A stretch of DNA of 64,000 nt from Thermoleptolyngbya sichuanensis A183 (GTDB lineage: Bacteria > Cyanobacteriota > Cyanobacteriia > Elainellales > Elainellaceae). The position numbers and the translations under genes were made by a program. The stretch lies in NCBI RefSeq assembly GCF_013177315.1, contig NZ_CP053661.1:1798001-1862000 (forward strand), written 5' to 3'. Positions 29,034 through 47,801 of the stretch are shown one piece after another. Position 1 is the first letter of the stretch, and each line of letters opens with the position of its first letter. Under the pieces are notes generated by a model that saw nothing but the letters and a program-made list of their open reading frames with translations, was not told the origin of the DNA and made no database searches.

Positions 29034-29284
29034 GATATTGAACTACTAGGATATTCCCGGATAGGCCTTGGGATGTCTCTTAGTCATGGCTGAATCATAC
29101 GCCAAATGATTTCAAGGATGAGGTTATACCGAAAATGGTCAACCAGCTGTCGAAATTCTGACCTTTGCCCTAATCGATGAACAGTCGTTCATCTGTAAAA
29201 GAGGTTACGATGTAGCCTGCTCGATCGAGGACAGCAGGTAGCCAGCTCGATGCGGAGTTGACTGGCAACATCGTTTACCGCCCG

Positions 29285-29425
29285 CTAGCCATTGCGGATC
29301 GATAGCCACCCCGTCAGCCCCACCACCGCAAAGATTTGTGCAGCGCAAAGGGCAACACCAAGAACGATCGCAACGGCAGTCCTCTCGCTAGGCTGGGGCG
29401 GGCACGGGGGGATGGATGGGTGCAT
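29285..29425 (-). CDS. Possible tiny single-helix membrane protein
   Basis: A 46-residue frame starting MHPSIPPCPPQPSERTA has a clean hydrophobic helix (VAIVLGVALCAAQIFAVVGL) and a short basic tail. There is no Shine-Dalgarno, and the frame continues upstream without a clear start. It could be a real microprotein or chance. Confidence 0.25.
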   Translation of the reverse strand: MHPSIPPCPPQPSERTAVAIVLGVALCAAQIFAVVGLTGWLSIRNG

Positions 29426-30329: not shown

Positions 30330-32504
30330 ATGGCTGCACTCTGGGTTGGACTATTGGGGTTTGAAAATATTGGGCAGTTTTATAAGGGAGCAAGCCTGGG
30401 CATGGGATCTGCTGCGTCTTCGTTTATCCCGCATGGACACTGCTATTTGTGGCAACCGGGGCTGGTGGGGCTACATGTCGGCTCAGATGCGCTGATTGCC
30501 TTGGCATATTATTCCATTCCGCTGACGCTGTACTATTTTGTTCGCAAGCGGAAGGATTTGCCCTTTAACGATATTTTTCTGCTGTTTGGCGCATTTATCG
30601 TAGCCTGCGGTACGACGCATTTGCTGGAGGTGTGGACGCTATGGCATCCAGACTACTGGCTGTCGGGTTCGATTAAGCTGCTGACCGCAGGCATATCCCT
30701 GTTTACGGCAAAAGAACTGTTTTCGATCGTACCCAACGCGCTGGCGCTGCCCAGTCCGACTCAGCTAGAACAGGCAAACCAGGAACTCCAGGCGCAGATT
30801 GCCGAGCGCATGGCGATTGAGGCAGAACTGAAGTGCCATCAGGCCCAGCTCGAAGACCGGGTGGCAGAGCGCACGGCCCAGCTTGAAGCGTCCAATCATC
30901 AGATGGAAGAGTTGCTGCGTCGAGAGCAGGAAGCCCGCAGCCAGACCGAGCAAGCCCGCACCGAAATTCAGCGCTACGCCAATCGCCTGACGCTGGCGCT
31001 GGATGCCGCAGAGATGGGCTTTTGGGAATGGGATATCGACTCTAATCGGATTACGGGTACACCGCAGTTTGCCAGGATTTTGGGGCGCGAACCGTCCAGT
31101 CTGGAGAATTTTGACGTGGAAGACTGGAAGGCGCAGATTCTGCCTGAAGATCGGGCGTTGGCTGCTTCGGTGACAGAAGCGGCGATCGCCCAGTGCCAGA
31201 CCTTTCGTTGCGAATATCGCCTGAAGCATCCTGACGGCAGCCTGCGCTGGGTCAACTCGGTGGGCCGCTGCGAGTATAATGCGGACGGGCAGCCCATGCA
31301 AATGTCGGGGGTGCTGATCGATACGACCCAGCGTAGGCTCGACGAAGCCAGCCTCCGCGAAAGCGAAGAGACGACCCGCCGACAGCTTGCAGAAATCGAG
31401 GCGATTTACACTACTGCGCCGATTGGCCTGTGCGTGTTTGACACTCAGTTTCGCTACGTGCGGCTGAATGACTTTCTGGCAGAAATCAACGGTGTCCCCA
31501 TCGAGGATCACCTAGGCAAAACGGTTTGGGATATCGTGCCAGAACTGGCCGAGCATCAGGAACGGGTTTTGAGGCAGGTTGCCAGCACGGGGCAGCCTGT
31601 TCTCAACTTGGAGGTGCAGGGAGAAACGCCGCTGAAACCAGGCGTGCTGCGCGACTGGCTGGCAAATTACTATCCTCTATGGGGGCTGGACGGCAACTTG
31701 CAGGGCATCAACGTCACGGTGCAAGAAGTGACCGAGCGCAAGCGCGACGAACGAGAACTAGAGGCGCGAGCGCAGGAGTTGGCTCAGTTGAACCTGCTGC
31801 TGGCGCAAAGCACGGCGCAGGTGCGCGAACGCAATCAGGAGTTGGATCAGTTTGCCTACGTGGTGTCGCACGATTTGAAGGCTCCTCTGAGGGCGATCGC
31901 CAACCTCGCCTATTGGATCGAAGAAGACTTAGACGATTCCCTGCCAGAAGAAACCCGGCAGCATCTCACCCTCATGCAAAGCCGCGTCCGCCGGATGGAG
32001 GGGCTGATCAACGGGCTGCTGGAATATTCCCGCATTGGTCGCTCTGATACGACGACGGAAACCGTCAACCTGACGACGCTGCTGCATGAAGTCGTTGATT
32101 TGCTCGACCCGCCGGACACCGTGCAGGTTTTTATCCCTGAAGAGTTGCCAACCCTGACGACTAAGCCGCTGCTGCTTAGCCAGGTGTTGGCAAACCTGAT
32201 TGGCAATGCCATTAAACACCGCGATCGCCCGGATGGACGGGTCGAAGTCACCGTTGCCGACCAGGGCCGCCACCTTCGATTCACCATCGCGGACGACGGC
32301 CCCGGCATCGACCCCCGCTATCACGACCGCATCTTCGCCATTTTCCAGACGCTAAAGTCCAAAGACGATCAGGAAAGCACGGGCATTGGGCTATCCATCG
32401 TCAAGAAAATCATCGACACTGAGGGCGGCGAGATTCACCTGGAATCTGAGCTGGGTCAAGGAACCACGTTTTGGTTTACCTGGCCGAAGGGCGGGATGGA
32501 GTGA
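30330..32504 (+). CDS. Histidine kinase with N-terminal ethylene-binding domain, two PAS domains
   Basis: This is a 724-residue membrane sensor kinase. The N-terminus has three transmembrane helices (about 54-72, 82-104 and 112-130) forming an ETR1-type ethylene-binding domain. Asp53, Tyr60, Ile63, Pro64, Ile90, Cys93 and His97 stand at the same spacing as ETR1 Asp25, Tyr32, Ile35, Pro36, Ile62, Cys65 and His69, so the Cu(I) ligands (Cys/His of CGTTHL) are kept. A coiled coil, two PAS domains (about 220-335 and 350-470), and a kinase core follow. The core has phosphoacceptor His514 (VSHDLKAPL), N box NAIKHR, DDGPGI and GIGLSIVKKI. The start has AGGAGGT at 5 nt. No response regulator is adjacent. 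It is comparable to Synechocystis SynEtr1 but without a phytochrome/GAF module. Confidence 0.93.
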   Translation: MAALWVGLLGFENIGQFYKGASLGMGSAASSFIPHGHCYLWQPGLVGLHVGSDALIALAYYSIPLTLYYFVRKRKDLPFNDIFLLFGAFIVACGTTHLLEVWTLWHPDYWLSGSIKLLTAGISLFTAKELFSIVPNALALPSPTQLEQANQELQAQIAERMAIEAELKCHQAQLEDRVAERTAQLEASNHQMEELLRREQEARSQTEQARTEIQRYANRLTLALDAAEMGFWEWDIDSNRITGTPQFARILGREPSSLENFDVEDWKAQILPEDRALAASVTEAAIAQCQTFRCEYRLKHPDGSLRWVNSVGRCEYNADGQPMQMSGVLIDTTQRRLDEASLRESEETTRRQLAEIEAIYTTAPIGLCVFDTQFRYVRLNDFLAEINGVPIEDHLGKTVWDIVPELAEHQERVLRQVASTGQPVLNLEVQGETPLKPGVLRDWLANYYPLWGLDGNLQGINVTVQEVTERKRDERELEARAQELAQLNLLLAQSTAQVRERNQELDQFAYVVSHDLKAPLRAIANLAYWIEEDLDDSLPEETRQHLTLMQSRVRRMEGLINGLLEYSRIGRSDTTTETVNLTTLLHEVVDLLDPPDTVQVFIPEELPTLTTKPLLLSQVLANLIGNAIKHRDRPDGRVEVTVADQGRHLRFTIADDGPGIDPRYHDRIFAIFQTLKSKDDQESTGIGLSIVKKIIDTEGGEIHLESELGQGTTFWFTWPKGGME

Positions 32505-34506: not shown

Positions 34507-36025
34507 TCTTTAGTTTGGACTAACTGGCATCACAATAATGCTCAACAGGATGCCATAAAGAATCTGCTCAACCGTTCATAACAGTTGAACTTAAGGAATT
34601 GGATACAATCCTGCTCGCAGTTAAGCTGCTGTTGCAACCGGACTGTTCAGGGATTGTTCGGATGTCTTGCGTTTCGAGGCTCGTTTTTTGACCATCGGAT
34701 AGCAGGGACGAGGAGTTGGCTTGTGCCCCTTGCCTCGTCCTGGCGATTTACCACGAGGTTTAGGCGCAGGAGCAGGGGTGCCAATCGCTGCCAAAATGCC
34801 TGCAAACGCTTGTGCGACCCGACCCGGAGTCAACGTTTCTTGCGGTGCCTGCCAGGGCAAGGGGTGGTCAGTACAGTCCTTTCGCGCTAACCACAACTGC
34901 CAACTGAGCAACGGCATCAGGCTGCTCCACTGTTCGGTTGCCGATACAGAACTGAACTGGGGATGTGTCCAATATAGCCTCTGCTTGGCAAAGCGATACC
35001 AGTGTTCAATGGCAAAGCGACGGAGGTAGTGCAACCACAGGGTTTCTAACGGAGGCATCTGCTCACCCAGCCAAACTAACCACAAAGGAGCCAAGCGTCG
35101 CGTGCTGCTCTGTGTCTCCAGCACCTCCACGCGCAACACTTCCATTGCCCGTTTGGGGGATTTGCGGAAATGGTATGCACTCCAACGACTGACCCGCACT
35201 CGTCCCCAGTTGGGATCATCGACTTCAACGGTTTCGACCGGGACACTCCAAGTGTCAGGGTCATTGAGTTTCATCTTATGTCCATGCTTGGCAGGTGCGC
35301 CTCGCCCTCGATACGCTGGGGGCGCGCCATAGACACATCGATTGGATGTAACCCGCAGCAGCAAGTCTGCCTCAATCCCTGCCGTTTGGTTGACAAAACT
35401 GGCATTGCCGTACCCTCGGTCGTAGATCGCCAACGGACGCACCGCTAACTGCCGAGTCACTTGTTTGAGTTGGAATGCCGCTTTACTGGCGGGTGTTTCA
35501 AAGCTGGTGATGCGCTCATGCCGCAATGGTAATGCCCAACTGCCCCTGTCTTCAGCAATCCAGGCTAAGGTACTGTAGTTTTGTCCGGCTATCGGGGCAT
35601 GTCCTGTTCTGCCTGATAAGGTGCGGTCTTTCAAACGCCTGGCAGCAGGACGGTTCCACCGACTCGCATCACCTGCCAACAACGGTTGCTGCTGAGTCGG
35701 TATCTGCTGCACCAACAGCTTCAGCACCTTTGATCGGGGTAGGCGGCTATCGCGCAACGCTTCATAGGTGCTCGACCACTGGCGACGAAAGACAGGACTC
35801 TGCGATAGCCTCACAAACGACACGATGCACGCACTCACTAACACGGCATCCATCAGATCAAACAGGGCATCTCTGGCGTTTCCCAAGCTGGCATACAACG
35901 TTTGGCGAAATTGCTGAAGTTCGTTGAAAATCATGGGGTCAATGTTGGTTGTACTTCATTGACCTTACGGCAGTCGGTGCTTCTCATTGACTGCCTTCCT
36001 CTTCACCATTAGTCCAAACTAAAGA
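34507..36025. mobile_element. Complete insertion sequence with 17-bp terminal inverted repeats
   Basis: The ends TCTTTAGTTTGGACTAA (34507-34523) and its exact reverse complement (36009-36025) enclose one transposase gene on the minus strand, giving an element of about 1.52 kb. A clean target-site duplication is not obvious in the adjacent bases (GGT on the left, CTAG on the right). The intact ends and open transposase suggest recent arrival. It abuts copy B of the MITE-like family on one side and an IS630 transposase fragment on the other. Confidence 0.88.
34621..35934 (-). CDS. DDE transposase of an IS4/IS701-like group
   Basis: The 437-residue transposase has an N-terminal helical region, a conserved LLAGDASRWNRP segment (first catalytic Asp), LAIYDRGYGNASFV (second Asp, YDRGYGN motif), and a C-terminal YLRRFAIEHWYRFAKQRL (Glu helix, typical of IS4/IS701-type enzymes). 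The C-terminus is very basic (RGKSPGRGKGHKP). The frame is intact from ATG at 35934, so the protein may be active. I place it with the IS701-like putative transposases by memory only. Confidence 0.88.
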   Translation of the reverse strand: MIFNELQQFRQTLYASLGNARDALFDLMDAVLVSACIVSFVRLSQSPVFRRQWSSTYEALRDSRLPRSKVLKLLVQQIPTQQQPLLAGDASRWNRPAARRLKDRTLSGRTGHAPIAGQNYSTLAWIAEDRGSWALPLRHERITSFETPASKAAFQLKQVTRQLAVRPLAIYDRGYGNASFVNQTAGIEADLLLRVTSNRCVYGAPPAYRGRGAPAKHGHKMKLNDPDTWSVPVETVEVDDPNWGRVRVSRWSAYHFRKSPKRAMEVLRVEVLETQSSTRRLAPLWLVWLGEQMPPLETLWLHYLRRFAIEHWYRFAKQRLYWTHPQFSSVSATEQWSSLMPLLSWQLWLARKDCTDHPLPWQAPQETLTPGRVAQAFAGILAAIGTPAPAPKPRGKSPGRGKGHKPTPRPCYPMVKKRASKRKTSEQSLNSPVATAA

Positions 36026-36703
36026 CTAGACCGTACAGCCACCGATACACAAAGTCCCATTGAACTGAACCAATCGGCTGCACCCCAAAGCCCATCAACT
36101 TGCGATGTTGAACCGTCAGCAGTCCGACGCGGCTCTCATCGCTGCACCAATAGCGGATTCGCCCCCCGTAGCGTTGTCTCAAGGCTGGCGGAATCGACTG
36201 GCTTATCTGGGCTGCAAGGTTTGCTGAACGGACTCGCACGCCCCAGGAGTCTGCTTCTTTGACACCGGACGGGGCACTTTGAGCTTCGCTTTGAGCCGAT
36301 AGCGCACCGTCTTATGCACCGTCTTGTAGGGGACGGGTTGACCATGCACCGCTGCGAGCCACTGCTGCACTGCTCCATAACTGCTAAAGCCTTCTGGATC
36401 TTGCAGTTCCCGCTCCAAAGATGCCAGGACTTCACCGCTAATCGCTCGCGGTCGTCCACTGCGAGATGCCACCTTCACCAACGCTTCGAGTCCACTCTGT
36501 CGATACTGGCTCAGCCAACGAGACACGGTCGTGCGATGGCAACCGCTCAGTTGGGCTAACTGCTCAACGCTCTTCGCTTGTCCGGTTTTTAACCACCACA
36601 ACACCTGTACTTTACGGCGCTGTGATGACCGTTGCTGTTGTTCCAAGACGGCTTTTAGTTCTTCTGCTGTTTCAGCGATATCGATTTTGAGGACTCCACT
36701 CAT
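36026..36703 (-). pseudogene. IS630-family transposase, frameshifted and cut by the neighbouring IS
   Basis: Frame 1 (36703 to 36203, 166 residues) has the IS630 helix-turn-helix region: LAQLSGCHRTTVSRWLSQYRQ, then RSGRPRAI and QQWLAAVHG. Frame 2 (from about 36239 downward) continues with RYWCSDESRVGLLTVQHRKLMG, which carries the first catalytic Asp, and stops at YRWLYG, exactly where the IS terminal repeat begins. The remaining C-terminal half is absent from the far side of the IS. The shift between frames near 36210-36235 may be a mutation or a relic of programmed frameshifting known in IS630 elements. Confidence 0.82.
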
Positions 36704-36847: not shown

Positions 36848-39800
36848 TTAGTTACTATCTCCGCTGGCTGTCACCAGCACTTCGCCTTTAAGCATCCGCT
36901 GCGCCGCATCAAGCAGCATTTCCTCCAAATAGGGCTTGGTAAAGTAACCCTTGGCTCCAAGCTGGATAGCCATTTGACGGTGGCGGTCGGCTCCGCGAGA
37001 TGTCAGCATGGCAATAGGAATGTGGGTCAGGTGCGTGTCTTTCTGCATTCGAGACAGCAGTTCCAGACCGTCCATGCGGGGCATCTCAATGTCGCAGAAC
37101 ACCAAGTCGCAGGGCAAGCCAGACCGGAGCTTCTCCCAGGCTTCCTGCCCGTCGCGAGCCTGCTCCACCCGATAGCCAATCTTGGCAAACGTCATCGACA
37201 GCAGTTCGCGGACGGTAATGGAGTCGTCCACGATGAGCACCGTGGGTTCCTGCTTTGCATCGGCGGCATTAGCGGGTGGCTCTTCGCTGACTTCCCACAG
37301 GGAGCTACCGGCCTCGCGACGGATGCGGCCCATCGACAGGTCGATGAGTTCCAGCACGTCGGCAATGGGCATGATGCGTCCGTCGCCCAGCACCGTCGCC
37401 CCAGCAATGCCCAACGGTTTGGGCACAGGCCCTTCGAGCTGTTTGATGACAATTTCCTGTTCGCCCAAGACCTGATCGACTTGCAGTGCCAGATAGCTGC
37501 CCGCGTTGCTCCGCAGCACCACCACCGACACAATATCGTCTTCCTGGTTGCCGCCATAGACGCTGCCGCGACCCAGGCTGCGATTGTATTTCAGCAGGTT
37601 CGACAGCGGCTGGAAGGGTAGCAGTTGTTCGCGCCACGGGATACAGGATTGACCTTCGCTATTGATCTGGATGCGATCGCGCGGGACATCCAGCATATCC
37701 TGCACCCCGTCCATTGGGAAGGCGATGCGGGCGCGGTTGCTGATGCAGCACAGTGCCTTGGAGATACTCAGTGTCAGCGGCAGACGGATGGTGAAGGTCG
37801 TGCCGCGCCCGACAGAGGAGTCGATGTTGATCACGCCCCGAATTTCGTTGAGGCTGGTGCGAACCACATCCATGCCCACGCCGCGCCCCGCCAAATCGTC
37901 GGCTTTGTCGCGGGTGCTGAAGCCGTGGTGGAACAGCAGATCATACACATCCAGCCGAGACATATTCTTAGCTTCGGCAGGCGTGATTAGCCCACGGGCG
38001 ATCGCCTTCTGTTTCACCAGTTCCGGGTCAATTCCAGCTCCATCGTCGCTGACCGAAATCACCGTCTGGTTGCCCTGGTGGAAAGTGCGAACCGTAATTC
38101 GCCCGGTCGGTGCTTTGCCCATCGCGGCCCGTTCCTGGGGCGACTCGATGCCGTGGGTAATGGCGTTGTTGACCAGGTGCGTCATCGGGTCATAAAGCTG
38201 CTCCAAGATCATCTTGTCGATCAGGGTTTCGCGTCCCTCCAACACCAGTTCTGCCTGCTTGCCACAGCGCAGAGAGATGTCGCGAACCGCACGGGGCAGG
38301 CGATCGGCGGTTTGGGCAAAGGGCACCATTCGGGTGCGGGTCAGCCCCTCCTGAAGCTGCGTGGTGATCTGGCGGAAGTTGCGGGTGATCTGATCTGTCT
38401 CGTCCACCACAAAGTCAATGTCCGAGGCCGATTCTCGCACCCGCACGATTAGCTCGATCATCTCCTGTGAGAGGGTGTGGAAGCCCGTGAACCGATCCAT
38501 CTCCAGCGCGTCGAAGCTCACGCCCGTTGCGTGGTTGCTCTGGCTGCTGCTGGGTGCGCTGCCAGGAGTTGTAAAGGCAGAGGTCTTGCGTCCAGAGAGC
38601 AGAGAGCTTTCCAAGAGCGATCGCTCATACAGGTCGCGCATCCGCTGACCCACATCGCTCAACTGCTGCACTTGATAGAGCAGGTTGTCGAGGAACTGCC
38701 GCAGCCGTTCCTCAGCTTGTTCCAGACTGTTGCGGTTGACGACCAGTTCACCCACCAGGTTGTTGAGGTTGTCCAGGTTTTTGACTGACACGCGCATGGT
38801 TTGGTCAGTCAGGGTGGGGGCGTTGCGGCGCGTTGCGGGCCGGCGAGCCGCAGCAGCATTCCGAACTGCCCGCATCGTGGGAATGTCGGACAGGGTTTGA
38901 TCGGCGTTTTCTAGCAGCCGTTCCAAGTCCTCAAACTCATCTGCCTCGTCCTCGCTGGGAATTGGAGGAGCAGTAGGCGGAACAGAAGTTACATCTCCGT
39001 CGAGCAGCGCTTCCAAATCCGCAAAGTCGTCCGCCTCTTCCACGCCAAACCCTGAAATAGGCGTTTCAGAGGCAGTTGTTGCCATTTCTTCTTCTAGTAG
39101 CGCATCCAGATCGGCAAAGGCATCTACTTCATCCCCAACGCTGTCCTCGTTAACCATGCTAGAATCTGCCAGCAGGTCTTCCAAGTCGGCAAAATCGCTG
39201 TTGGGGTCTGATGCGTTTTCAAACAGGCTGGCTTTGCTGAGGTCAAGCCCAAAATCTGGCGTGACGGTTTCGTCGGCATTGCCCAACAGCAAATCCAGGT
39301 CGCCAAAGTCGGCTACGGCTGCCGCAGTTTCGGGATTGGGGGCGATCGCCTCCAAAGGCTTGCTGGAGATCAGGGGTTCTTCTACTGAAAATTCCTCTAC
39401 TGAAAGCCCCTCTACTGAAAGTTCTTCTACTGGAAGCTCCTCAGCAGAAGCGCTGGCTCCGTCGTCGATCGACTCTTCAATCGCAAGTTCTGCTGCAAGT
39501 TCTGCGCTTGTCTGTAACTCTTGCAGATCTTCTACTTCTAACTGAGGCTCCTCTAGTTGCGACTCTTCCAGCAAGGCATCCAGACTGCCAGCGGCTTCGG
39601 CATCTACCCCTGAAAACAGTTCGTCTCCATCCAGCGCCTCCGTGCCCAGAGCTTCGTCCAGTCCCAGATCGATCAGGGCCAACTCATCTTCTGGTGAAGA
39701 AGCATCTTCAGTCGCATCGAGATCAGCGCTAGCAGTAGGCTCTTCTAGGAGTTCTACGTCTGCATCACTTAGGTCAAAGCCCCCCAGATCTTCGACCTCC

Positions 39801-42139
39801 AGCACGTCTGAGTCAGCCGTTGGGTTGATTGCTGGAGAGGGTGCTTCCTCTTCCGGTAGATTATCCAGGCTGTCCCAAATCGCTTGGGCTGATGGCTCAG
39901 CGCCCCACAAATCAGCCGTCATGTCCTGATCGGCCTCCACATCCCACATCGCTGGAGCCGGAGTCAGCGCCGCCAGCCCATCTTCAGAATCCAGCGCATC
40001 TAGCCAGGACGTTGGCTGAGAAGCAGCGTCTTCCTGGAAATTATCCTTCAGGTCGAGTCCCATTTCAGGGTCGCTCAGATCAGAACCGTCCATCGCCAAA
40101 GGATCTTCGGCAGCAGACGGATTCTCCGTCAATGCATCAGACAATACATCCGATGCATCTAATACATCCGATGCATCGGATGCATCCTCAGCCACATCCG
40201 CGGTAGGCGGCTCAAACAGGATTGCCGAATCCCTCCCAGCCTCAGCGTCTTCGCTGACTTCGGCTAGCGCTTCTGGCTCTAAATCGCTGCCCAAATCTGC
40301 AAAGAAGTCGTCTAATGCGTCTAGATGCTGGTCAGGTTCTAATACTTCAGACAAGTCCAAGAAGCTGTCTTCTGGCCCGCTAGTGAGTTCTTCCAGCAAG
40401 CCATTATCCGAATCGTCTAGTCCAAAAAAGTCTGGGACTGGAGACTCTTCAGCAAATAGGTCGCCATCCAGCAGGTCATCCAGAGATGCCTCTCCAGTCA
40501 TTGCAGAGGCATCAGGATCGGTAAATTGCGGTTCTGGCTGCGCTCCAAACAGAGATTCTGAGGAGTCATCCATCTGAGCCACGCTGTTCGCCGCAGCATT
40601 CAGAATTGCAGAAAGATCGTCGTCTGAATCGTCGGCCGCGCTTTTAAAGCTGCCGGAATCGTCCCCAGCGCCGTAGGATTCTAGCCCGCCCTCTAGCTCT
40701 AGTTCTAAGTCGCTCAGTTCGCCAGCAGTGTCTTGCCCAAACAGCAGGTCCGAGAAGTCGCTAGAGGGGTCAGGCTCTAGCGGTTCGGGTAGCTCCACCT
40801 CGACTTCTGACAAGATTTCTTCCTGCCAGATGATTCCTAGGTCAGGGGCTTCGTTTTCAAATAGGTCAGCCAGGCTGTTGAGTTCTGCGATGCCGACTTC
40901 TGGCCCGTTTTGCTCGTCCCCTGTGGGATCATCGGCTGCGGCAAAATCTAGTTCTTCTAAGCCGCTGGGCCCATCCAACGCATCCAGGCCTAAGGCACTG
41001 TCATCCGGTGAAGCGAAGAGGTCTGGTGCATCCGAAGCGGATGTATCCGGCAAGTCAAAATCGGCTGTGTCAAATGACCGTTCAAAATCGTTCGTGCGAT
41101 CGCCCGATCCTGCCTGCTCGTCCGCCGCCGCACCAAACGCCGCATCAAAGCCCAGCGGATCGAGATCTAGAGGCGCGTTGGGTACATCCAGCACTTCGGC
41201 ATCGGGCAAGCCAAATTCGGCTGCATCCACACCGCCATCGGTGGTTGGCGGCACCGATAGCCAGTCGGCAGCAGGTTCCAGCAGCAGGTCATCGTCGCTG
41301 GGCTGGAGTTGGAGTAGGGCTTCGCTGGGCGTGATGTCGGCAGCGCGACTCGCTAGCACCTGTTCCTGCGCCTGCTTGATGTCTTTGATGATGACGGGCG
41401 CAAGGGTGCGAAACTCGTTGTCGGGATGGGCGATCGCCCCTTCTGCCAGAGAGAGCAGCTCCGCCCAGGCAGGCAAGTCAAACGGATCGCCGTAGCCGCT
41501 CAGCGTGCGACAGAGGGCCTGAAGCTGTTGACGAGTAGCATCACTGTCTGCCTGCTTGAAGAGTTGCAGCATTTCTCGCAGGCGAGCGGGCACGTCGCTC
41601 TGGAACATCAGGAGCAGGGCGCTTTCCTCGGCGATCGCAGGCTGTGGCGCAGGGGCAGGCGTTGCCTTGGCAGCAGGAACCGATAGCTCCACATCCTCCG
41701 GCGGCGTGCCACCCGACTGAGCCACCAAACGAGACAAATGTTCGTTGATTTGCCCAAAGATTGGCTCCACCCCAGCCATCACCTCGGCAGATTTGTCATC
41801 GGTCAACCCAAAGGGACCCTGGAGGTGATCCAACAGTTCTCGCAGCGCGTCAAATACGCCTAGCAGCAGAGTTTCTAGAGTTTGGTCAACCTGCACTGGG
41901 CACTCTTTCAGCACCTTGAAGTAGTCTTCCAGGCGGTGGGATGTGTTTTGAATGCTGTCCAGCCCCAACATTGCCGCGCCGCCCTTGACCGAGTGCGCTG
42001 CACGAAACACCTCGCTGACCATCTCCGAGTCTTCGATGGTGGCTTGCAGATTCAGCAACCCCTGCTCGATGGTGTTCAGATGGTCTTTTGCTTCTTCAAT
42101 GAAGTAGCCCAGGATGCGCTGTTGTTGTTCCGACAGCAT
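36848..42139 (-). CDS. pilL: Giant CheA-type hybrid histidine kinase (PilL)
   Basis: This is a 1763-residue kinase of the type IV pilus chemotaxis system. An HPt domain (1-120) has phosphoacceptor His49 in AAHSVKGGAAML. From about 190 to 1100 there is an extremely acidic low-complexity linker (Asp/Glu/Ser/Ala/Leu). CheA dimerisation (VKNLDNLNNLVGELV, near 1115), the HATPase (NNAITHGIESPQERA, near 1320; DDGAGID), a CheW-like domain (near 1465-1600) and a C-terminal receiver (VLIVDDSITVRELL; phosphoacceptor Asp in FCDIEMP, about 1680) follow. The start is ATG at 42139 with AAGGAA upstream; the open frame continues 28 codons further without support. It is the last gene of the pil operon. Confidence 0.93.
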   Translation of the reverse strand: MLSEQQQRILGYFIEEAKDHLNTIEQGLLNLQATIEDSEMVSEVFRAAHSVKGGAAMLGLDSIQNTSHRLEDYFKVLKECPVQVDQTLETLLLGVFDALRELLDHLQGPFGLTDDKSAEVMAGVEPIFGQINEHLSRLVAQSGGTPPEDVELSVPAAKATPAPAPQPAIAEESALLLMFQSDVPARLREMLQLFKQADSDATRQQLQALCRTLSGYGDPFDLPAWAELLSLAEGAIAHPDNEFRTLAPVIIKDIKQAQEQVLASRAADITPSEALLQLQPSDDDLLLEPAADWLSVPPTTDGGVDAAEFGLPDAEVLDVPNAPLDLDPLGFDAAFGAAADEQAGSGDRTNDFERSFDTADFDLPDTSASDAPDLFASPDDSALGLDALDGPSGLEELDFAAADDPTGDEQNGPEVGIAELNSLADLFENEAPDLGIIWQEEILSEVEVELPEPLEPDPSSDFSDLLFGQDTAGELSDLELELEGGLESYGAGDDSGSFKSAADDSDDDLSAILNAAANSVAQMDDSSESLFGAQPEPQFTDPDASAMTGEASLDDLLDGDLFAEESPVPDFFGLDDSDNGLLEELTSGPEDSFLDLSEVLEPDQHLDALDDFFADLGSDLEPEALAEVSEDAEAGRDSAILFEPPTADVAEDASDASDVLDASDVLSDALTENPSAAEDPLAMDGSDLSDPEMGLDLKDNFQEDAASQPTSWLDALDSEDGLAALTPAPAMWDVEADQDMTADLWGAEPSAQAIWDSLDNLPEEEAPSPAINPTADSDVLEVEDLGGFDLSDADVELLEEPTASADLDATEDASSPEDELALIDLGLDEALGTEALDGDELFSGVDAEAAGSLDALLEESQLEEPQLEVEDLQELQTSAELAAELAIEESIDDGASASAEELPVEELSVEGLSVEEFSVEEPLISSKPLEAIAPNPETAAAVADFGDLDLLLGNADETVTPDFGLDLSKASLFENASDPNSDFADLEDLLADSSMVNEDSVGDEVDAFADLDALLEEEMATTASETPISGFGVEEADDFADLEALLDGDVTSVPPTAPPIPSEDEADEFEDLERLLENADQTLSDIPTMRAVRNAAAARRPATRRNAPTLTDQTMRVSVKNLDNLNNLVGELVVNRNSLEQAEERLRQFLDNLLYQVQQLSDVGQRMRDLYERSLLESSLLSGRKTSAFTTPGSAPSSSQSNHATGVSFDALEMDRFTGFHTLSQEMIELIVRVRESASDIDFVVDETDQITRNFRQITTQLQEGLTRTRMVPFAQTADRLPRAVRDISLRCGKQAELVLEGRETLIDKMILEQLYDPMTHLVNNAITHGIESPQERAAMGKAPTGRITVRTFHQGNQTVISVSDDGAGIDPELVKQKAIARGLITPAEAKNMSRLDVYDLLFHHGFSTRDKADDLAGRGVGMDVVRTSLNEIRGVINIDSSVGRGTTFTIRLPLTLSISKALCCISNRARIAFPMDGVQDMLDVPRDRIQINSEGQSCIPWREQLLPFQPLSNLLKYNRSLGRGSVYGGNQEDDIVSVVVLRSNAGSYLALQVDQVLGEQEIVIKQLEGPVPKPLGIAGATVLGDGRIMPIADVLELIDLSMGRIRREAGSSLWEVSEEPPANAADAKQEPTVLIVDDSITVRELLSMTFAKIGYRVEQARDGQEAWEKLRSGLPCDLVFCDIEMPRMDGLELLSRMQKDTHLTHIPIAMLTSRGADRHRQMAIQLGAKGYFTKPYLEEMLLDAAQRMLKGEVLVTASGDSN

Positions 42140-42301
42140 AGCGGTGTTCCTTTTAAATGGGGGAAATGCGCGAAATGAAGATGGGGTGAGCGGTTCAAAA
42201 TGCAAGAGGGCGTATCCCCTCAAAATCTAACCTAATGTACCCGAATCTATCCAAAGCTCCATCAAGTGCCGAGCAAGCCAGTCAAGAAGACGCAGAAGAC
42301 A

Positions 42302-45208
42302 CTACTTTTCAACGCGGAACCGTTCCACCGAGTTCAGCAGGTCGCGGGCAACGCCCACCAAGTTTTGCAGCGAACCCGACACGCGCTGTGCTTCTTGAGA
42401 GGTTTCTTGGGCGGTCAATTCCACTGACTGCATCACCTGAGCCACGGCGCGGGAGGTTTCGGTTTGCTCGATGGTGTCGGTGGTAATGGAGCGCACCAGC
42501 ACGTCGATGCGGTTCGACACCTGAATGATGTCTTCGAGCGATCGCTTTGCCTGTTCTGCCAGCCGGGTGCCCTCGATCACCTGCTGCGTACCTTCTTCCA
42601 TCGCGGTCATCACCGAGCCAGTCTCGCTTTGAATTTGCAGCACGATTTGCTCAATTTCCTTCGATGCTTTGGCGGCCCGGTCGGCAAGCTGGCGCACCTC
42701 GTCTGCCACGATTGCGAATCCGCGTCCTGCTTCGCCTGCCCGCGCCGCCTCGATACTGGCGTTCAGTGCCAGCAGGTTGGTGCGAGAAGCGATGGAGGAA
42801 ATCAGAGCCACAATCTTGGAGATTTCCTGGGACGATTCTGCCAGGCGTTTCACCTTGCGAGTCGTTTCTGCCACTGTTTCGCGGATTTCTAGAATGCCGG
42901 ATACGGTGCGCTCCACCGCTTCTCCGCCCTTGAGCGCAGTGGTAGAGGCAGAACGAGCCACCTCTTCGGCTTCGCGGGCGCTCTCTGCTACCCGCTGAAT
43001 CGAATCGGTCATCATTTGCACAGAGTTCAGCGTGACGGCTAGCTCTTCCGCCTGCCGCAAGGCATCAGAAGAGAGCGATCGCGCAAAAATCTCATTCTCG
43101 GTAGATCCCTTAGTCACCTGCCGCGCCGCCTGCTTCACCTGCTGCACGATTTCTCGCAGGTTTTGAATGGTCAGGTTAAACGAGTCAGCAACTGCACCCA
43201 GCACGTCTGCGGTCACCTCTGCCTGCACCGTCAGGTCGCCCCGTGCCGCGCCTTCCACATCATCCAGCAGGCGAATCACCTGACGTTGCAGGTCTTCCTT
43301 CGCTTGCTCCTGCTCCTCCGCTTTGCGCTGGGCTTCGCTAGTGGTCGTCAAAATCACCCGCGCCATCTGGTTAAACCCAGACGAGAGTTGGCCCAGTTCA
43401 TCTTCGGAGTAAACCGTTGCACGAGCGTTCAGATTGCCTTGCGACACAGCGCTGAACTGCGCCTGCAAATCGCTCACCGAGCGCTTGATTTGACGATTCG
43501 ACGCAGCGCTCAGAGCCGTTGCCGTACCGCCACCAACCAGACCCGCCGCCACCGCCATCACCAGCCCCATCTTTTGGCTTGCTGGAATAATGGTCGGGCG
43601 GTCTTCTTCGGGCACTAGAAAGTTGGATGCCAGGAAGCCGATCGTCGCCACGGCGATCGCCGATGTGATACCCGTCGCCAAGCCAATCAGCCACTTCTTG
43701 CTGTCGAGCGGCGCGTTTGCCAAGGGAGCTAGCCAGCCCTGCTGCTCAGCCACCTCAGCCTCCACACTCCGCCCATCGCCCTGAGTAAAGGTCGGCAGCG
43801 CATCCGATACACCAGAAAAGCTGAAGATTTCGTCTTCTCGAATCACCGACTGATCGGCTCCCCCGTCAGTCAAGTCAAACCCACTCTCACTGGACACCAT
43901 GCCCGCACGCCCGGAAACCAAAAAGCTTTCGCCGCCGACCGAAGGACTCGTAAAGCCAGCCGAATGGTCAGACATATCGAAATCGGGCAGGCTACCCAAA
44001 TCATCGAACTCTTCAAACTCATCTAGAAAATCCGCCCCTCCAACCGATCTGCCGCTGTGGGGGTCTTCGCTGGTTGAGAAATCGTCCAGGCTATCCAGGT
44101 CGTCCAGCGCATAGCTATTGCCACTGTCCACAAAGGTATGGTCATCCAAATCTGCCGAAAAACTACTGCTGCCGTTGCCATAGCTCGGCATCGAGTAGCC
44201 ATTTGTCTCATGAGACGGAGAAGCATAACCTGCCGTACCATAATCCGACATGCCATAGTCCAATGGGTTATGGTTCAATGCGCTATAATCTGATGCCCCG
44301 TAATCTGGCGTTCCATAATCTGGGGCAGCATACGGGTCATCCTCTTGCGGCTGACCATGCCCAAACGTTGCTTCACCATCTTCTTCAGACGACAAGGCTT
44401 CAAATTCATCCGACATCATGAATAGAGTCTCTTCCCCAGTCGATTCAGCAGGCATAGCAAAACCGCCGCTGGCAGAAGGCGATGGAAAAGATTCAAACAC
44501 CTCGTCCTCTAACCCCGAATCAAAAGATAAGTCTGCATCCGCCGCCGGATCGTCGAATCCAGCCGCTGCAAAGTTCTCCATCGACTGTTCGGGATCGTCA
44601 AAGACATAGGGCGATGGCTGCCCTAACCCTGTATCTGCTGAACTCGCCAGCCCAGCCAAGGGATCATCTGATGCCGCAAAGGGGTCATTCAACCCAAAGC
44701 CATCGCCTGCGTTGTCGCCTGCGAATGGGTTGTCAAAGGGCGACGGAATCGCTTCAGGGCCGGCAAATGGGTCTTCTGCACCATTGAAGTCCAGCCCATC
44801 GAAGCTAAAAGCATTATCCAAGTCGCCTAGATCGCCACCCTCTTCAAAGTAAGTTTGGGAGTCAGTTGTGCTAACAAAATCACCGTCAATGTCGTCAAAT
44901 CCAGCATCTGGGGCAACCGTCGCACCAGCATCGCTATACTGCTGGATTGTTTCTAACCCACTGTTGGCATAATCGACATACTCTGGGTCGTTGGTCAGCG
45001 ACAGCACAAACTCGTACTGTTCACGCGCAATGTCGTATTGCTGGAGGCCATAGCAGTAAATATGTCCGCGCAATAGCCGCACATTGGGGTCATCGGGATA
45101 GTCTTCTACAAGGCGATCGATCACCGCTGCTGCATCGTCGTATTTTCCTTGCATATAGGCTCTTTCAGCCTGCTGATATTCCTGTGCGTATCCAGTGCTT
45201 GATCCCAT
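42302..45208 (-). CDS. pilJ: Methyl-accepting chemotaxis-like protein PilJ
   Basis: The 968 residues begin with a TPR-like domain (about 5-85, [18 protein letters not shown]). A long acidic Asp/Ser/Phe/Gly-rich disordered region (about 90-490) includes tandem DYG-type units around 295-335. Two transmembrane helices (about 500-520 and 545-565) flank a very short loop. HAMP follows (to about 620), then the MCP signalling domain with the conserved hairpin [31 protein letters not shown] split over about 805-840. The short loop means little periplasmic ligand domain, so sensing may be cytoplasmic or through pilins. It lies 162 bp before pilL. Confidence 0.92.
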
Positions 45209-45296
45209 GTGCCTTCTCCTTAAGCCTGTGCGCGTCTCCGAATGTGCCTCGGTCTAATGGGTTGTCGAGTGAGTTATCGAACTGATTGAAGCTGAG

Positions 45297-45827
45297 TCAA
45301 GCAGCCCATCGGGCCGACCTCAGAATTGCGACTTGATCTAGCAGTCTTAAATGGCGATCTTGAGCGTCTCCAACGGCCCATTCGCCTCGAATAAAGGGAG
45401 CCATGCCGTCGGGCAGGTTGGTTGGCACCTGAATGTCGTCAAGGGGAAGCCAGTCCATGCCGTTAATCAGGTCAACGGCCAACCCCAACATGGTGTCTTG
45501 GTCTTCAACCGCGATGACGTAGATTTCTGAGCGATCGGTACTCAGTGGCACGGAGTCTCCCAGAAACTGACCTAGATCGGCAACCCAAACAACGCGCCCT
45601 CGCACGTTTAGAGTACCCAACAGCAGGGGAGAGACATTCGGAATGGGCGTGATGCGATCGGGCGGAGAAGCAATCACTTCTTTGATTCCTACCGCAGGCA
45701 GGGCAAACTCGTCACCCGAAGTCATAAAAAATCGCAGGTGTAGTTCTCCTTCAGGACTGTCTAGCTCCTGAAACTCTGCGACCTGATCCTGCCCTCTGCC
45801 TGTGAAAAAATCTGGATTGCCTATCAT
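45297..45827 (-). CDS. pilI: CheW-like coupling protein PilI
   Basis: The 176-residue single CheW domain (LRFFMTSGDEFALPAVGIKEVI at the start, LLLGTLNVRGRVVWVADLG in the middle, VDLINGMDWLPLDDI near the end) would bridge PilJ receptors to PilL kinase. It sits between pilH (35 bp gap) and pilJ (88 bp gap) on the same strand, the gene order of cyanobacterial pilus chemotaxis operons. Confidence 0.9.
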   Translation of the reverse strand: MIGNPDFFTGRGQDQVAEFQELDSPEGELHLRFFMTSGDEFALPAVGIKEVIASPPDRITPIPNVSPLLLGTLNVRGRVVWVADLGQFLGDSVPLSTDRSEIYVIAVEDQDTMLGLAVDLINGMDWLPLDDIQVPTNLPDGMAPFIRGEWAVGDAQDRHLRLLDQVAILRSARWAA

Positions 45828-45862
45828 GGACGATTAACCTATCTTTACCTGGTTCATCTGAG

Positions 45863-46228
45863 CTATCCCCGCAGCAATTGCTTGACCGTGCCCACTAGCT
45901 CGGTTGGTTGGAACGGCTTTGCAATGTATGCATCTGCACCCTGCTTCATGCCCCAATAGCGATCGAATTCTTCCCCCTTAGAGGAACACATCACAACGGG
46001 GATGTTTTGAGTTTTGGGATTGGCTTTAATTTGTCGGCAGACCTCGTATCCGTTCATGCGGGGCATTACGATGTCGAGAACCACTAGATCAGGGCTATGG
46101 CCTTCTATTTGTTCTAGCGCTTCTACACCATCGCTAGCTACGGTAACATCGAGTCCGCTGCCTTTTAGCAGGTCAGTAATCATTTCCCGCTGGGTCACGC
46201 TGTCTTCTACAACCAAAACTCTACTCAT
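45863..46228 (-). CDS. pilH: CheY-like response regulator PilH
   Basis: The 121-residue stand-alone receiver domain has the acidic pocket near VVEDSVTQ, phosphoacceptor Asp in LVVLDIVMPRMNG (about 53), Ser in VMCSSKGEE and the switch Lys in YIAKPFQP. There is no output domain. It should take phosphate from PilL and act on pilus motors or as a phosphate sink. AAGG lies upstream of the ATG. A 259 bp gap separates it from pilG, so it may have its own promoter. Confidence 0.92.
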   Translation of the reverse strand: MSRVLVVEDSVTQREMITDLLKGSGLDVTVASDGVEALEQIEGHSPDLVVLDIVMPRMNGYEVCRQIKANPKTQNIPVVMCSSKGEEFDRYWGMKQGADAYIAKPFQPTELVGTVKQLLRG

Positions 46229-46487
46229 AACGCCTTACTTTGCAACCATAGTGTTGATTTCGCGAAAACCGCTGGGGTAAACACTGAGTGGATTCTAGAA
46301 GCCTACTAGGAAACTTACTAATAAAAATAATGCCCTTTTATTGCGGTGCCCTTTAAAGATAGCGAAGGTTGGCATTTGCAAAACACCTGACCTCTGTGTT
46401 GGCAGAATTTTGACAAAACATCAAACTACATTGGCAAATATTGGCAACCCTCTGCTTCGCGGGTGTTTTGCAGGCTCCTGTGCCGGG

Positions 46488-47801
46488 TTAAGCGGGATGG
46501 GGTGGAAATGAAGAAGCATCGGTAGGGGGTGGTTTGATATCAAGTTCTAACGCATTTTCTAAGTCTTCTGCCAGGAGTCTTTCAACGTTGGGCGGGTTTT
46601 CTAGCCCTGGGCCAATGTAGGTTTCGACCAGTGTGAGTAGTTCTTGTTCGCCGAAGGGTTTTGTGAGATAGTCGGTTGCGCCGACGATGCGTGCTTTGAC
46701 GCGATCGATAAAGCCGTCGCGTCCGGTGAGCATGATGATTGGGGTTTGCCGGAAGGCAGTGGAGGTGCGGAGCATGGCGCAGATTTCATAGCCATCCAGT
46801 TCGGGCATGGAAATATCGCACAGGATGAGGTCGGGCTTGAGCTGAAAGACCAGGCTGAGGGCCTTGAGGGGGTTGCCGATGGAGGTGGCTTCGTAGCCGT
46901 GGCTGCGGAGGATAGACTCAATGGCTTTGCGGATGGAGGTGCCGTCATCGATGCAGACGATGCGGGGGACGGGGGTTTGAATGGTGGGCTTGGGCTTTGT
47001 GGGCAGGGTGTTGGGGGTCGGGGTGGCAAGCTGGACGATGCCTTGCTTGATGTAGGGGTAGAGGGCTTTGGCGACGGTGATGAGGTCACGGTTGAGGTAG
47101 CGAGAGATTTGCCGGATGGAGGTTTGTCCGTCCATCCAGTCGCTGAGGGCGGCGATGGTGGTTTCTTTTACGGAGTCGCGGAGGCGATCGCCATCGACCA
47201 CAACCAGCCCTTGATCGGGGGATTGGATATGAGGATGAAACTTTTTCCAGGACTGTACCTGAGTCATGATGCGGGCAAGTAGTGGGCCAATTTCCAGCGT
47301 GGTGAGTTGGGGGGCGAGGGGAGAACCGATTTCAAAGATGAAGCTGCCTTGGTGCAGGCTGAGCAGGTCAAACAGGGTTTCGCGCACCATGCTGTGGATG
47401 ATGCTGCGGGCCTGGGCGGGGGTGAGGATGCGCTGCTCCAGCAGAGCCCAGAGGTGTCCATATTCGGGGGTGTTGGTAGTGGCGATCGCCCCTCCAGTGT
47501 CTACCCCATTCAGCGATGCTTCCAACTGATAGCGACGGAGGTAATCGCGCAAGCGAGACAAATTGCTCCGGGCATCGCCTGCGTAGATGATTTGACCGTT
47601 TAGAAAAAAGACAAACCAGGACTGCGAGGGTGTGGTCTTGGCGAGACGGTTTCGCAGGACGATTGGCGCAGTATTGGTGTCGCCTCCTGGCAGCATTCCA
47701 CCCAGCCCGTAGGACTCTACAAACAGTTCGCCCGTGCGCTGACCCAGTTCCACGAGCTGGAGAATGCTGCGGATATCAATTTCATTCAAGTTCCCCTGCA
47801 T
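46488..47801 (-). CDS. pilG: PatA-type response regulator PilG
   Basis: The 437 residues start with a PATAN/DUF4388-type domain (MQGNLNEIDIRSILQLVELGQRTGELFVE), followed by a helical middle region. A C-terminal receiver domain (about 285-405) has RIVCIDDGTSIRKAI, phosphoacceptor Asp in LILCDISMPELDG and Lys in YLTKPFGEQ. PatA/PilG-type regulators in cyanobacteria link pilus chemotaxis to twitching direction. It is the first gene of the operon. The C-terminal tail is Pro-rich. It is divergent from hmpF. Confidence 0.92.
   Translation of the reverse strand: MQGNLNEIDIRSILQLVELGQRTGELFVESYGLGGMLPGGDTNTAPIVLRNRLAKTTPSQSWFVFFLNGQIIYAGDARSNLSRLRDYLRRYQLEASLNGVDTGGAIATTNTPEYGHLWALLEQRILTPAQARSIIHSMVRETLFDLLSLHQGSFIFEIGSPLAPQLTTLEIGPLLARIMTQVQSWKKFHPHIQSPDQGLVVVDGDRLRDSVKETTIAALSDWMDGQTSIRQISRYLNRDLITVAKALYPYIKQGIVQLATPTPNTLPTKPKPTIQTPVPRIVCIDDGTSIRKAIESILRSHGYEATSIGNPLKALSLVFQLKPDLILCDISMPELDGYEICAMLRTSTAFRQTPIIMLTGRDGFIDRVKARIVGATDYLTKPFGEQELLTLVETYIGPGLENPPNVERLLAEDLENALELDIKPPPTDASSFPPHPA

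Follow-up and report, generated by a model that had tools for sequence, protein, structure and literature searches.

A probable ETR1-type ethylene receptor kinase of Thermoleptolyngbya sichuanensis A183 and its candidate Rcp1-type partner regulator

The plant ethylene receptors ETR1 and ERS1 of Arabidopsis sense their ligand through an N-terminal three-helix ethylene-binding domain (EBD), in which seven ETR1 residues (D25, Y32, I35, P36, I62, C65 and H69) are required for ethylene binding (PMC6682694, PMC6586836); of these, C65 and H69 coordinate Cu(I), and D25 is implicated too (PMC6586836, PMC12643061). Among the bacterial relatives, SynEtr1 (slr1212) of Synechocystis PCC 6803 joins an EBD to PAS, a chromophore-binding GAF domain and a kinase, and passes its signal on to a response regulator by phosphotransfer (PMC11819568), the target being slr1213. 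AzoEtr1 of Azospirillum brasilense, an EBD-PAS-histidine kinase of 525 aa with all seven residues, one PAS domain and no GAF, binds ethylene, affects biofilm formation and is paired with an adjacent single-domain regulator of 135 aa (PMC11819568). Finally, the filamentous Geitlerinema sp. PCC 7105 has two receptors with all seven residues, GeiEtr1 (EBD-GAF-kinase) and GeiEtr2 (EBD-PAS-GAF-kinase-receiver), and its phototaxis is altered by ethylene (PMC6682694).

The window, a stretch of 64,000 nucleotides from the single-contig genome (5,525,100 bp) of T. sichuanensis A183, encodes a sensor kinase of this kind with the following features:

30330-32504, plus strand: whole gene of the EBD-PAS-PAS-HisKA-HATPase_c sensor kinase, 724 aa (ORF, Pfam)
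30411-30461, plus strand: residues 28-44, ahead of helix 1 and including the PHGHCYLW motif (conservation among EBD hits)
30462-30749, plus strand: EBD (ETR1_N, PF25487), residues 45-140, three predicted transmembrane helices (Pfam, hydropathy, AlphaFold, BLASTP)
30486-30488, plus strand: D53, equivalent to ETR1 D25, in helix 1 (alignment)
30606-30620, plus strand: C93-x3-H97, equivalent to ETR1 C65-x3-H69, in helix 2, predicted Cu(I) ligands (alignment; PMC6586836, PMC12643061)
31053-31313, plus strand: PAS_3, residues 242-328 (Pfam)
31416-31745, plus strand: PAS_4, residues 363-472 (Pfam)
31842-32039, plus strand: HisKA dimerisation/phosphoacceptor domain, residues 505-570 (Pfam)
31869-31871, plus strand: H514, predicted phosphorylated histidine within HisKA (Pfam, alignment)
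32166-32489, plus strand: HATPase_c, residues 613-720 (Pfam)

The start ATG is preceded by AGGAGGT and, with an in-frame stop two codons ahead of it, is the earliest start possible. Positions 2-97 of the ETR1_N profile match residues 45-140 without insertions or deletions (E=1.2e-41, 141 bits against a cut-off of 27), and alignment shows the kinase motifs H, N, G1 and G2 to be intact (SHDLKAP, NLIGNAIKH, DDGPGID and STGIGLSI). The interval 30330-30720 to which a preliminary description had assigned the receptor does hold the N-terminal domain, but the whole gene extends to 32504. The two PAS domains and kinase core without a light module that it reported are the Pfam domain order: neither a GAF nor a PHY domain was found by Pfam, so the chromophore-binding GAF (CBCR) that marks a dual light/ethylene receptor of the SynEtr1 type is missing. 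The layout is instead that of AzoEtr1, with EBD, PAS and kinase and neither GAF nor receiver, from which the window kinase differs in its second PAS domain. It likewise lacks the GAF domains of GeiEtr1 and GeiEtr2 and the receiver of GeiEtr2, and is set apart from the plant receptors, which have a GAF domain, in some a receiver, and signal mainly via a Ser/Thr kinase.

The ETR1-type identity of the domain and the positions of all seven residues, both asserted in the preliminary description, were borne out by BLASTP alignment with the ETR1 N-terminus. Identity is 43% over 94 aa, the same figure as for GeiEtr1, and D25, Y32, I35, P36, I62, C65 and H69 correspond to window residues 53, 60, 63, 64, 90, 93 and 97 with identical, gap-free spacing, so that C93 and H97 do fall on the ligand positions. 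The sole gap in this alignment comprises three residues in the loop between helices 2 and 3; once the shorter loop is allowed for, K116 and S123 equal ETR1 K91 and S98, and the spacing of 19 from the ligand histidine to the lysine is that of AzoEtr1 (H79, K98; PMC11819568). Hydropathy maxima at residues 54, 90 and 126 and modelled AlphaFold helices at 43-73, 80-105 and 109-139 (mean pLDDT 87) agree with three transmembrane helices, and the ethylene-binding residues sit in helices 1 and 2 of the model. A PDB sequence search returned kinase and PAS relatives only, with no solved EBD among them, and Foldseek with the EBD model gave nothing at E below 0.001 (best 0.47). In NCBIfam no model reached its cut-off.

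EBD proteins are common in cyanobacteria: of 291 genomes sampled across the class, 159 carry ETR1_N, representing 88 of 131 genera, and so do 31 of 40 near genomes, each with up to seven copies. As about half of the sampled cyanobacteria have such kinases, the 724-aa protein is an ordinary member of its family. Full-length EBD-PAS-PAS-kinase orthologues are found in the same-genus MAG J069 (G001, 81% identical), G011 (61%), G016 (58%) and G039 (57%). G003 and G018 encode shorter one-PAS relatives, and G036 and G022 encode relatives at a greater distance (43%). The recurrence of the layout in several genera marks it as an established type. A contig scan returned the J069 protein as single orthologue, the remainder being unrelated kinases. 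The preliminary description had proposed this layout as a useful comparison for ethylene-linked phototaxis, a case weakened by AzoEtr1 (PMC11819568) and the Geitlerinema receptors (PMC6682694). Its reading of the gene itself was right, but it missed a response regulator that can be predicted, and three further EBD kinases that bring the genome's total to four:

L012:7290-8687 (G000:C1, about 5275300): paralogue of 465 aa, EBD-kinase
L013: paralogue of 990 aa, EBD-GAF-kinase-receiver
L014: paralogue of 1305 aa, EBD, several PAS-like segments (by eye) and kinase core; an Rcp1-like regulator gene comes next

All seven residues are kept in 54 of the 88 EBD hits of the near genomes, the window protein among them. 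The substitutions elsewhere recur in distinct groups. Short EBD kinases of 454-488 aa without PAS or GAF (L012, L073, L082 and L094, from four genomes) keep the copper ligands and have Asn in place of D25. The same substitution is seen in L014, the paralogue of 1305 aa, and in a few more. Since ETR1 requires D25, these kinases may be unable to bind ethylene or may respond to another signal. A conserved group of about 865-925 aa (L060, L083, L063, L104, L092 and others) has Ser in place of Pro36, a position that is Ser in 17 and Ala in 3 of the 88 hits. In L130 (G020:C30) an in-frame stop interrupts the EBD region of an EBD kinase gene, which is likely a pseudogene.

An HxHCxxW motif that precedes helix 1 (30432-30455, residues 35-42) hardly varies among cyanobacterial EBDs (H35 in 76, H37 in 77, C38 in 79 and W41 in 84 of the 88 near-genome hits). 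It is absent from ETR1, whose N-terminal CxC is replaced by HGHCYLW in the window protein, and might be an additional metal site, with copper loading as one conceivable role. Such a motif would also suit a domain that binds copper or ethylene but whose physiological ligand is copper itself or another small unsaturated or gaseous molecule, ethylene sensing being incidental. The several EBD paralogues, two of them in this genome, that keep C65 and H69 yet have lost D25 point the same way, because the EBD fold then serves proteins that perhaps do not bind ethylene. We nevertheless regard this reading as improbable for the window protein, which retains all seven ethylene residues, as do SynEtr1 and AzoEtr1, two receptors for which ethylene binding and ethylene responses are established (PMC6682694, PMC11819568). 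The gene is real and intact, and probably encodes a functional ethylene receptor kinase.

AzoEtr1 adjoins its regulator, whereas no response regulator gene lies beside the EBD kinase in the window. The gene that does follow it, on the same strand at 108 bp, encodes a divergent aldehyde dehydrogenase (ALDH) of the Pfam family PF00171 (32613-34262). The preliminary description suggested a link between the two genes, and in J069 an 85% identical ALDH gene likewise adjoins the kinase, at 141 bp. However, common descent alone predicts such adjacency in one same-genus genome, and the ALDH gene is next to the kinase at none of the orthologue loci surveyed from other genera, which makes a functional link very improbable. 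About 2.6 kb past the ALDH gene, beyond two IS-type genes (34621-35934 and 36203-36703), there is a Pil/Tax-type chemosensory cluster on the minus strand (36848-47801) with a CheA carrying a receiver, a HAMP-MCP, CheW, CheY and a PatA-like DUF4388 regulator; Pfam detects only HAMP and MCPsignal in its MCP, hence no hint of a light receptor. In J069 a different gene, not this cluster, follows the ALDH gene, and with the IS-type genes in between the cluster was set aside as a functional neighbour of the kinase.

The upstream flank varies within the genus as well. In J069 the EBD kinase gene is separated from a PP2C gene by a divergent operon of two genes (L005:1693-6949), one for a hybrid of dCache, HAMP, kinase and receiver and the other for a REC-PAS-GGDEF-EAL protein. 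Scraps of the dCache hybrid kinase gene, with an internal stop codon, lie on the minus strand of the window at 29093-29388, and no full-length counterpart of the REC-PAS-GGDEF-EAL protein was found elsewhere in the window's genome (best match 47%, without receiver). The c-di-GMP operon has been lost from this genome.

A comparison of the kinase core of the EBD protein (residues 500-724) with the genome gave one close match, 64% identical (next best 36-39%), to a kinase whose N-terminus reads by eye as CHASE3-like (L145:10821-12998). This kinase belongs to a conserved cassette (L145:8034-12998; G000:C1, about 4356000-4361000) that also encodes a receiver-kinase and, about 2.5 Mb from the window kinase, the following regulator:

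L145:9337-9774 (G000:C1:4357339-4357773): Rcp1-type single-domain response regulator with Asp69, downstream of the CHASE3-like kinase

A divergent NarL-like regulator lies near the cassette, and in NCBIfam the receiver-kinase is weakly similar to Leptospira LvrB. A literature search found no description of the CHASE3/Rcp1 cassette.

With its at least 50% identical core and an Rcp1-type regulator in the genome, the window kinase belongs to the same core family, and in its first DHp helix it nearly matches the cassette kinases and differs from the genome's other kinases. Among the 40 near genomes, all 16 that have the core family also have the Rcp1-type regulator, against 1 of the 24 that lack this family; among the 291 genomes the figures are 80 of 91 and 4 of 200. 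This co-occurrence is carried by the cassette kinases and drawn from related genomes that are not independent samples. The larger set contains 40 head-to-tail pairs of core-family kinase and Rcp1-type regulator, in 39 genomes, and two of the pairs involve an ethylene-type kinase. In the cassettes of G022 and G036 the gene immediately upstream of the regulator, which is 71-76% identical to that of the window's genome, encodes an EBD-PAS-PAS kinase of this core family; both EBD kinases have Ala at the essential Pro36 position and for this reason may not bind ethylene. A tree of the cores places the seven window-type EBD kinases, each from a genome with a CHASE3-like paralogue as well, in a group of their own (support 93/78). 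The two cassette EBD kinases make up a second group (98/98), and both groups are nested in a family of mostly CHASE3-like kinases.

The simplest reading of these sequence relationships is that the core was copied from a cassette kinase and fused to an EBD, with the partner retained. The regulator at G000:C1:4357339-4357773 is the best candidate partner of the EBD kinase, and is single-domain like the partner of AzoEtr1. Very probably it also serves the CHASE3-like kinase, which shares the core. The wider proposal, that CHASE3-like and EBD inputs have been exchanged within an Rcp1-wired core family and that both receptors report to one regulator here, seems to us evenly balanced. A less probable, though by no means negligible, possibility is that the EBD kinase signals to some other unlinked response regulator or to the formerly neighbouring c-di-GMP regulator. 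The operon beside the EBD gene in J069 and its decayed scraps in the window would fit the latter, but this operon is divergent, has a hybrid kinase of its own and is missing at the other orthologue loci, and the core family itself associates with the Rcp1-type regulator.

We therefore favour, with good though not full confidence, the view that the 724-aa protein belongs to the known bacterial ETR1 family, as a cyanobacterial ethylene receptor kinase, and signals to an Rcp1-type regulator. By analogy with the family, its dimeric three-helix membrane domain would hold Cu(I) at C93 and H97, together with D53, and bind ethylene there, and binding would alter autophosphorylation of H514 via a coiled-coil and the two PAS domains, which may carry a second input. 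Ethylene inhibits the kinase activity of ETR1 and, on indirect evidence, that of SynEtr1 (PMC11819568); by default one would expect it to lower kinase activity here too. Phosphate would then pass to Asp69 of the stand-alone Rcp1-type regulator, as the association of the two families suggests, and the ethylene input and a second, CHASE3-like input would converge on one regulator.

Only two points go beyond routine annotation: the partner prediction and the variants found in nature, D25N and P36S/A. Bacterial ethylene receptors are known from only a few studied species, and in a receptor without a light module the effects of ethylene could be studied apart from the photoreceptor that complicates SynEtr1. 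The window kinase now has a concrete candidate partner that is cheap to test, and the variants in conserved EBD kinases test how closely the seven ETR1 residues delimit the ethylene receptors.
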